Assembly: GCA_900469955.1 (NCBI GenBank)
Contig: UBYX01000033.1
Coordinates: 1 to 64,000, forward strand
DNA length: 64,000 bases
From: Hyphomicrobiales bacterium
GTDB taxonomy: Bacteria; Pseudomonadota; Alphaproteobacteria; Rhizobiales; Rhizobiaceae
Direction: 5' to 3'
In this document: piece by piece, positions 2,223 through 18,490 of the stretch
Layout of the letters: each line of letters begins with the position of its first letter
Numbering within the stretch: the stretch's first letter is position 1
Made by a program: the position numbers and the translations under genes
Notes under the pieces: model-generated
What the model was told of the DNA's origin: nothing
What the model saw: only the letters and a program-made list of their open reading frames with translations
Database searches by the model: none

Positions 2223-2292
2223 GGCTCAACCCAACAAAAACAAAGCCGGCGGCGAAAAATCGCAACCGGCCCGTGGGAAGACATCTTCTCGC

Positions 2293-2347
2293 GGCCCTTT
2301 AGCGACTTTTTTAACGTGGCTGCAAGCCGGCCGGCCAAATCACCACG
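2293..2347 (-). promoter_or_regulatory. SAM-II riboswitch upstream of metA
   Basis: Read on the minus strand the segment contains GTGGTGATTTGG, then GGCTTGCAGCCAC, then GTTAAAAAAGTCGCTAAA. These are the conserved blocks of the alphaproteobacterial SAM-II (metA) aptamer: a P1 hairpin (GTGG with CCAC) followed by the A-rich pseudoknot strand and GTCGCTAAA. It sits in the metA leader, the classical location. Assigned by eye from consensus; a covariance search would settle the exact ends. Confidence 0.92.
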
Positions 2348-2522
2348 GAATTACGAGCTTTCAAATAATCCTTGCTAAGCCCCGCGTCAATGGTAGCAAA
2401 ATCTACCTCGTTTCGCGCAAAGGACGTTCCGACCGCGAGATCCGGCGCCAAGCGCTCGAAATCGGTGCGACAGGCTTTTGGCCGCTTTCCCTTCGTGCCC
2501 GGTTTACGCTATGGGCAGTGGC

Positions 2523-5594: not shown

Positions 5595-5639
5595 ACCGGC
5601 CTCTTGCCATCGGAACTTCCTGCCGTTAAATCTTTCTCT

Positions 5640-5732
5640 GCTCTAACGGGGTGCCACGCGATTTCGGGTGGCTGAGAGGCATCGCCAACCCGCGGAACCT
5701 GATCCGGCTAGCACCGGCGGAGGGATTAGACG
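5640..5732 (+). promoter_or_regulatory. TPP (THI-box) riboswitch upstream of thiBPQ
   Basis: The segment contains GGGGTGCC, GGGTGGCTGAGAG, ACCC, GGAACCTGATCCGG, CTAGCACCGG and CGGAGGGA in the order of the thiamine diphosphate aptamer. The outer stem is TCTAA (5642-5646) with TTAGA (5726-5730). It ends about 45 bases before the thiB start, so it should lower expression of the importer when thiamine diphosphate is abundant. Confidence 0.96.
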
Positions 5733-5778
5733 GCTCGTTATCAGCGCCTATTCCCCAATCTTTGAAGAGGAGGCGCTG

Positions 5779-17097: not shown

Positions 17098-17282
17098 AGC
17101 CTAGGTCCGCGCACGTATATGGACCGGTCACTACAGAGGAAAACGCCGGCCCCGCCACACATGGAGATCCCTTCAGATAAAGGCAAGCCTCCATATCCGG
17201 TTTTGCAGGTTAGCAGGAGATTTTACGCCCGATATGAGCTGATTTCTGCCGGGAAATCACCCCGCAAGGAACAGAAGCGAAC

Positions 17283-17623
17283 GAATCAGAGACGAATCGA
17301 AGACTCAATAGGATTCAGTTTTTGTTCACGGCTATATATTGATGTGAGTCCGCATGCCCCCACGACATCCTGAATCTGCCGTCGATTCATACCACTTTTG
17401 GGCGGTACCGTGGCCAAACCCGCCAAACTCACAGAGAAACACCAGAGTCAACGTGTTGATTTGGTTAATTTTTGATGAAACGCGGAGCGCTCGCTCTACG
17501 CCGCAACCTGACTAAACTAACTTTCGGGTCAAAGCCGGAACGAATCGCTGACGAATCAGAGACCTTTCGTTTTTCCCGTTTCGTTCTCACAACATGTAGT
17601 AGGTGAGGCGATCAGTCGGACTC
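17283..17623. other. Dense cluster of GANTC (CcrM) sites in a 700-base gene gap
   Basis: Eleven GANTC sites start at 17283, 17294, 17302, 17312, 17346, 17372, 17384, 17445, 17542, 17553 and 17619, where about 1.3 would be expected by chance in 341 bases. Several are 8-12 bases apart, close to one helical turn. GANTC is the target of the alphaproteobacterial cell-cycle methylase CcrM. The gap (17098-17796) lies between the divergent helicase and DUF3309 genes and contains no recognisable gene. Confidence 0.7.
17530..17557 (+). repeat. 28-base direct repeat, copy 1 (GAATC pair)
   Basis: This 28-base sequence, containing CCGGAACGAATCGCTGAC and a second GAATC 11 bases after the first, recurs exactly at 18335-18362. 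Weaker similarity continues for about 40 bases in both copies (TTCCCG, then GTTC). A diverged relative with the same GAATC-N6-GAATC core is at 17283-17298. Confidence 0.85.
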
Positions 17624-17727: not shown

Positions 17728-17752
17728 GGAACAAAAAACGCGAAGCCACGTT
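17728..17752 (+). promoter_or_regulatory. EcfG/RpoE2-type promoter for the DUF3309 gene
   Basis: GGAAC at 17728-17732 and CGTT at 17749-17752 are separated by exactly 16 bases. Transcription would begin near 17760, about 37 bases before the ATG at 17797. The glycine-zipper gene downstream has no promoter of its own that I can see and is probably in the same transcript. Confidence 0.78.
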
Positions 17753-18334: not shown

Positions 18335-18362
18335 CAAAGCCGGAACGAATCGCTGACGAATC
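18335..18362 (+). repeat. 28-base direct repeat, copy 2 (GAATC pair)
   Basis: Exact second copy of the 28-base sequence at 17530-17557, again with two GAATC sites 11 bases apart (18347 and 18358). The two copies flank the stress-promoter/DUF3309/glycine-zipper unit in direct orientation. Confidence 0.85.
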
Positions 18363-18430
18363 GGCGACATCGGCTTCTTCCCGGTTTGTTCACCGCAATA
18401 GGTAGTGTGATAACAATATGTTAACCATAG

Positions 18431-18452
18431 AGGCAGGCGATATCGCCTGCCT
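18431..18452 (-). terminator. 22-base perfect palindrome after phbB
   Basis: A perfect self-complementary 22-mer centred on GATATC (arms AGGCAGGCGAT) lies 38 bases after the phbB stop. It can form a strong stem, but the T-tract is missing on both strands, so termination is likely but not proven. Confidence 0.5.
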
Positions 18453-18490
18453 TGTTGCGGTCTAAATGCCGCCAAAGGTTAACGCCGGAA

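Follow-up and report, generated by a model that had tools for sequence, protein, structure and literature searches.

A tandemly repeated composite element beside a Suv3-like helicase gene, a candidate cis-regulatory hub in Alphaproteobacteria

The helicase locus and its GANTC cluster

The window, the whole 64-kb stretch of DNA that was analysed, carries a gene for a Suv3-like DEXQ-box helicase, which we take to be a bacterial relative of the mitochondrial degradosome helicase, and a divergent gene for a small DUF3309 membrane protein (Table 1). A sequence-only reading of this DNA had placed a cluster of GANTC sites between divergent genes for a large helicase and a small membrane protein, and both genes were confirmed. 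An RpoH-like promoter was assigned to the helicase gene (17159-17187) and an EcfG-like promoter to the DUF3309 gene (17728-17752), using consensus sequences that we presume to identify these promoter classes. A helicase scan gave 553 matches, the best 80 of which are 80 Rhizobiaceae loci, hereafter the relatives. The pattern CTTG-N18..20-CCATNT was found within 160 bp upstream of the helicase in 62 of the 80 relatives and in 0 of 80 in a reversed-sequence control. Elsewhere in the window, a SAM-alpha riboswitch (2279-2356, minus strand) and a TPP riboswitch (5637-5742, plus strand) scored above the Rfam gathering score.

Table 1. Coordinates of the genes, promoters and element parts in the window
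Feature	Position	Strand	Remarks
Suv3-like DEXQ-box helicase, 1043 aa	13966..17097	-	Pfam DEXQc_Suv3, E 9e-27
RpoH-like helicase promoter, CTTG-N19-CCATGT	17159..17187	-	between the element and the helicase
First two phased half-sites, GAAC-N6-GAAC	17269..17282	+	GAAC-N7-GAAC, the alphaproteobacterial LexA consensus, in most relatives
Element copy 1, 49-bp core GAAC...GTTC	17279..17327	+	GANTC at 17283, 17294, 17302 and 17312; model match E 6.5e-17
NrdR-like box A, copy 1	17329..17344		core CTATATATTG; 8/8 core positions
NrdR-like box B, copy 1	17360..17375		6/8 core positions; starts exactly 31 bp past the start of box A; GANTC 17372 overlaps its end
Element copy 2, core	17538..17586	+	GANTC at 17542 and 17553; exact motif; model match E 3.6e-16
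NrdR-like box after copy 2	17587..17602		core CAACATGTAG; 8/8; at exactly +31 only 4/8
EcfG-like promoter, GGAAC-N16-CGTT	17728..17752	+	before the DUF3309 gene; sequence pattern
DUF3309 small membrane protein, 51 aa	17797..17952	+	divergent neighbour; Pfam DUF3309, E 2.6e-22
Element copy 3, core	18343..18391	+	GANTC at 18347 and 18358; exact motif; model match E 2.4e-17
NrdR-like box after copy 3	18393..18408		7/8; at exactly +31 only 5/8

All eleven GANTC starts reported between 17283 and 17623 were found in place. The window contains 101 GANTC sites compared with a mean of 358 in dinucleotide shuffles, which shows that GANTC is avoided, so the cluster is more unusual than the earlier estimate of one site per 256 bases had implied. 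In 400 kb of the same genome, sampled as 20 stretches of 20 kb, 506 sites were counted (1.27 per kb). The richest 341-bp window of this sample held 5 sites, against 11 at the cluster, so that no comparable cluster was present, and the sample rate gave a Poisson estimate of about 1.6e-12 for at least 11 sites per 341 bp. The GANTC cluster is not due to chance.

The relatives showed the same concentration of sites. In 77 of the 80 relatives, the 341-bp stretch richest in GANTC within the fetched 16-23 kb fell in the gap upstream of the helicase, although in a few of these it had only 3 or 4 sites. Among 81 aligned sequences, the sites at 17283, 17294, 17302 and 17312 were kept in 73, 74, 69 and 72, respectively, and 17372 was GANTC in 62. 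Conservation thus held for most core sites, but those at 17346, 17384 and 17445 were little conserved (8, 4 and 16 of 81). The sites at 17542, 17553 and 17619 lie outside this alignment. The bases between sites were mostly variable, and the spacing of 11, 8 and 10 was retained in many of the relatives' loci. Seven of the eleven sites fall within recognised parts of two copies of the element described below; 17619 lies within none. The sequence-only reading had pointed to sites facing one side of the helix, and a non-chance, conserved cis element carrying CcrM sites does lie between the divergent genes. It was right that a cis element exists; the conserved entity, however, is a longer composite and not GANTC as such. 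Neither of the two outcomes named as refuting that reading, similar clusters in most gaps or sites that are not conserved in close relatives, was observed in the 400-kb sample and the relatives. Methylation may still act as a switch at the element.

Architecture, copies and distribution of the element

The element is about 110 bases long and tandemly repeated, and the GANTC cluster is part of it. Its core usually runs 49 bp from GAAC to GTTC, with GAAC/GANTC-like units in 11-bp phase on the left and an inverted unit ending in GTTC on the right. This spacing was exact in 131 of the 148 copies from the family and the window, one of which is a register-shifted overlap (locus L063). The 11-bp spacing of GANTC sites arises because the GAAC-GANTC units repeat. 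The core is followed by a palindrome and, in many copies, by a pair of palindromes 31 bp apart. Inspection by eye revealed no sigma70 promoter with a conserved -35 box within the element, and CTATAT occurred in some copies only. A consensus fold of the element had five pairs, none of which changed on both sides; because this shows no covariation, the element was treated as DNA.

The motif AACGAATCNNNGACGAATC occurs exactly three times without mismatch in the genome, at 17280, 17539 and 18344, all on the same strand. Copies 1 and 2 lie between the helicase and DUF3309 promoters. Copy 3 lies beyond them, outside 17283-17623 and between convergent genes, with 805 bp between copies 2 and 3. A sequence-only model of the element, R1, was used for genome searches; in the 5.8-Mb genome it found 3 matches, all at this locus, and the next match had an E value of 0.34. 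An operator serving a regulon with many targets was therefore rejected, as the model finds only the helicase locus. The same genome has a second GANTC-rich stretch with GGAAC...GTTC (locus L087, C56, around 2267), upstream of a Ku-like gene named by eye; it differs from the core motif by two mismatches and spans about 44 bp from GAAC to GTTC instead of 49.

In the 80 relatives' loci, searched on both strands with up to 2 mismatches, the motif was found 145 times. It occurred in 1-5 copies per locus in 78 of the 80, always in one orientation and no more than 2 kb upstream of the helicase. Copies in the family were often about 200-260 bp apart and up to about 1.7 kb apart; the repeat distance was 199-267 bp in 27 intervals from 19 multi-copy loci that had been picked for close copies.

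More widely, model R1 had matches in 219 of 297 genomes of the order, which represent 87 of 122 genera (E up to 1e-3). In a class-wide draw of 289 genomes it matched 33 (E up to 0.01); three of them come from the window's own order, and the weakest matches are doubtful. Neighbours were checked in 58 fetched loci and 80 non-family loci among all matched genomes. The helicase was beside the element in 53 of the 58 fetched loci (11 of the 58 from the window's family), and three of the five without it were weak model matches. In the non-family set, which counts one genome twice (L160 and L229), the helicase adjoined the element in 77 of the 80 loci, on the opposite strand in all 77; the distance had a median of about 171 bp. 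The divergent neighbour varied, being the DUF3309 gene here and, in seven loci of distant families, a gene whose translation, judged by eye, resembles an acyl-CoA dehydrogenase. Because the divergent neighbour differs in distant orders, the element travels with the helicase and not with the divergent gene.

The helicase was also searched in 27 genomes, 24 without a model match and 3 with one. From the genomes without a match, 20 helicase loci were run against the model; 18 had no detectable element and 2 gave weak matches, so the helicase can do without the element. A reduced genome of the same family (G166, 1.5 Mb) gave no element match, and its helicase is a fragment with an internal stop, which is joint decay of helicase and element.

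Several other loci had features of their own. L160 and L229, from the same genome, contain four element copies, two of them in near-identical segments of about 225 bp, which look like a recent tandem duplication. In L115, from another family, a reversed GAACGAATC...GTTC of about 49 bp with four GANTC sites was seen by eye at about 1662-1710, between the element and the helicase. In L123 and L124, from one genus outside the window's order, the element has DnaA-box-like and TTAAC sequences on its flanks.

Similarity to LexA, CcrM/GcrA and NrdR sites

GAACN7GAAC, or GTTCN7GTTC on the other strand, is given as the alphaproteobacterial LexA box in passages of PMC3091678, and the genome's own lexA promoter carries a box of the GAACN7GAAC type. 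Counts of the LexA-like units used 63 first and 68 later family copies with the exact 45-bp GAAC-GTTC spacing. For the other families, 105 of 137 matches were used, after the removal of one genome's duplicate, of self-matches on the opposite strand and of some matches that were weak or partial; 104 of the 105 had GTTC. The first two units form a perfect GAAC-N7-GAAC in 47 of the 63 first copies in the family, in 46 of the 104 copies from other families and in 1 of the 68 later family copies. No perfect LexA consensus is present in the 64-kb window.

One GANTC site was universal across the other families, being present in 135 of 136 aligned matches, with A as the middle base in 134 of the 135; this alignment of 136/137 matches includes duplicates, opposite-strand matches and partial matches. 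The nearly fixed A indicates that selection acts here on a longer sequence and not on a GANTC whose middle base is free. The middle base of the site equivalent to 17312 varied in other families (T in 33, A in 8 and G in 6). Of the 104 copies from other families, 101 had the universal GAATC, and all 101 had C directly before it and a purine directly after it. In the family copies, which have two GAATC positions, the base that came next was a purine at 293 of the 296 positions. According to passages of PMC7987155, the extended GcrA motif in Caulobacter is YGAKTCK, and Brevundimonas GcrA has no preference for an extended motif. CGAATC followed by a purine is the reverse complement of YGAKTCK, which places the site in the extended context. 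With a single GANTC universal among the families, the GANTC richness of the locus is in part a by-product. The additional sites here would come from the repeated 11-bp units, the several copies of the element and lineage-specific additions.

The palindrome that lies just past the core's GTTC has the core CWANATNTWG. The published NrdR box consensus, as given in passages of PMC4009431, is acaCwAtATaTwGtg, and passages of PMC12176259 and PMC12051234 describe NrdR boxes as 16-bp palindromes with 15 (15-16) bp between them. A 15-bp gap between 16-bp boxes corresponds to 31 bp from start to start. In copy 1, the two palindrome cores start at 17332 and 17363, 31 bp apart, with 8 and 6 of 8 core positions. 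This is the only pair in the 64-kb window with a summed core score of at least 14 at 30-32 bp, although box B is weak; copies 2 and 3 have no partner box at exactly +31. The genome's own nrdJ promoter, on another contig (C50, locus L233), carries a similar pair at 31 bp with 8 and 7 of 8 core positions. About 245 bp upstream of the nrdJ pair there is one more box, ACACAAGATGTTGTGG, which stands alone and matches well.

Of the 148 family and window copies, 145 entered the palindrome counts. The best second palindrome was at 31 bp in 57 of 77 first copies in the family, and a second palindrome scoring at least 6 was absent in 51 of 68 later copies. In the other families, the 87 of the 104 copies with GTTC whose first palindrome scored at least 6 served as the spacing control. 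A second palindrome stood at exactly 31 bp in 30 of these 87 copies, against 0-7 at each other spacing from 14 to 60, and 57 of the 87 had none at exactly 31 bp.

Interpretation, alternatives and known systems

We propose, with a probability of about one half, that the element is an ancient cis-regulatory element, or operator hub, of the Suv3-like helicase gene that has been tandemly duplicated in many lineages. In favour of this reading, the element is unique to this locus in the genome and stays with the helicase in different families and orders, its parts match NrdR boxes, the extended GcrA motif and, in many copies, the LexA box, and the reduced genome G166 has no element match and only a broken helicase. 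As judged from its binding-site patterns, the candidate hub seems to combine signals of cell-cycle DNA methylation and of DNA building-block supply. A simple promoter operator is a poor fit for copies distant from the helicase, for example copy 3, which is flanked by convergent genes. A response regulator of the OmpR/PhoB type was considered, by eye, as a possible binder of the 11-bp repeats.

Other explanations were weighed against the cis-regulatory one. The density of CcrM sites might itself be functional, as an epigenetic switch or a platform for a methylation-sensitive protein, and several relatives' loci do reach 12-15 GANTC per 341 bp. In addition, GA-TC is kept at the site equivalent to 17312 in 47 of 131 sequences against 27 expected from independent columns. 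However, only one GANTC is universal and its middle base is almost always A, a single GANTC remains in 54 of 137 aligned other-family matches (duplicates and partial matches included), and 17346, 17384 and 17445 are little conserved; we therefore regard this explanation as unlikely. A tandem set of promoters directed away from the helicase and driving small untranslated RNAs would fit copies that share one orientation and are often similarly spaced, the CTATAT of copy 1, which resembles a -10 box, and the well-conserved 60 bp or so after the GTTC of copy 1 among ten Rhizobium loci. Past those 60 bp, however, the inter-copy stretches are variable, and a crude test detected no terminator-like structure on either strand in 27 selected stretches. 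The fold showed no covariation, and no Rfam match at the element exceeded its gathering score. The better of two weak Rfam matches near copy 3 was isrP (18384-18457), with E 0.002 and 29.8 bits where the gathering score is 45. Small-RNA promoters are thus distinctly improbable here, and a family of small RNA genes was not supported, for want of covariation, a terminator or an Rfam family above the gathering score at the element.

The locus could also serve the chromosome, for instance as a replication origin, a centromere or a titration site, and stand beside the helicase by chance. A single locus with tandem copies and GANTC sites would suit this, as would the DnaA-box-like sequence next to the element in L123 and L124. 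Its distance to hemE, however, is about 60 kb in A. vitis, 146 kb in R. johnstonii 3841, about 500-610 kb in other genomes with the helicase alongside, and 11 kb to about 2.3 Mb among matches with unchecked neighbours. The window has no perfect DnaA box, only a one-mismatch match near the element. An origin or centromere was rejected on these variable distances, which also contradict the earlier suggestion of a replication element in its origin-like form, and a chromosomal site of any kind is very unlikely. A dispersed or mobile repeat of the REP or RIME type, or chance repetition, is hardly credible: some genomes have the motif in near-identical neighbouring segments (L160), but the window's genome has no exact copy or model match beyond the three at one locus, and orientation and place are fixed in 78 of 80 relatives.

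If the element is a cis-regulatory hub of the helicase gene, its parts could work together as follows. NrdR, a dATP/ATP-sensing repressor, would bind the palindrome pair. CcrM would methylate the near-invariant CGAATC with its following purine once in each cell cycle, and GcrA would read this site. LexA could bind the left arm where GAAC-N7-GAAC is intact. The hub might then tune transcription of the helicase, and perhaps of the divergent gene, to replication passage, dNTP supply and DNA damage, acting on top of the RpoH-like helicase promoter. We suggest only tentatively, and with considerable doubt, that the hub is a class-wide replication-stress switch in which dNTP (NrdR), damage (LexA) and fork passage (CcrM/GcrA) set helicase expression and tandem amplification serves for tuning.

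Most bacterial operators turn over quickly, and a non-coding element that keeps company with one gene across orders of the Alphaproteobacteria is unusual. If NrdR binds, its regulon is not confined to reductase genes but takes in a Suv3-type helicase, and a single short piece of DNA brings together nucleotide sensing, DNA methylation and possibly SOS control. The 1-5 copies in related species offer a natural test bed for densely phased CcrM/GcrA sites.

The kinds of binding site in the element are known; their combination, their place before the helicase, the tandem copies and their persistence across orders appear to be undescribed. The open-licence literature, searched for the core sequence, Suv3, NrdR, LexA and conserved intergenic GANTC repeats, yielded no description of the element. 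In the part of this search that dealt with NrdR regulons of Caulobacter and Rhizobium, the main text of PMC5343134 did not contain the word helicase.

Among known systems, the GANTC promoters that MucR shields from methylation likewise have intergenic GANTC sites in Alphaproteobacteria including Sinorhizobium, according to passages of PMC5172544, which do not describe the helicase locus. The promoters controlled by GcrA and CcrM in Caulobacter and at Agrobacterium repABC, as presented in passages of PMC7987155 and PMC11514494, resemble the element in having GANTC in an extended context and several sites per intergenic region; in contrast, the sites of the element are denser and lie in phased repeats upstream of the helicase promoter, not inside it. 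The LexA box shares its half-site and, in many relatives, its spacing with the element, which has several half-sites at an 11-bp period and an inverted right arm. The window, however, has N6 spacing and no perfect box, and the inner units of the element are conserved as non-consensus forms. The NrdR operator shares the CWANATNTWG core and the 31-bp start-to-start spacing, as at the genome's own nrdJ. Unlike NrdR operators, which stand at ribonucleotide reductase promoters, the element precedes a Suv3-like helicase gene, with the helicase and DUF3309 genes as its neighbours. Its box B is degenerate here and missing in other copies, and its palindromes are joined to a 49-bp GAAC/GANTC/GTTC core and repeated with it in tandem.
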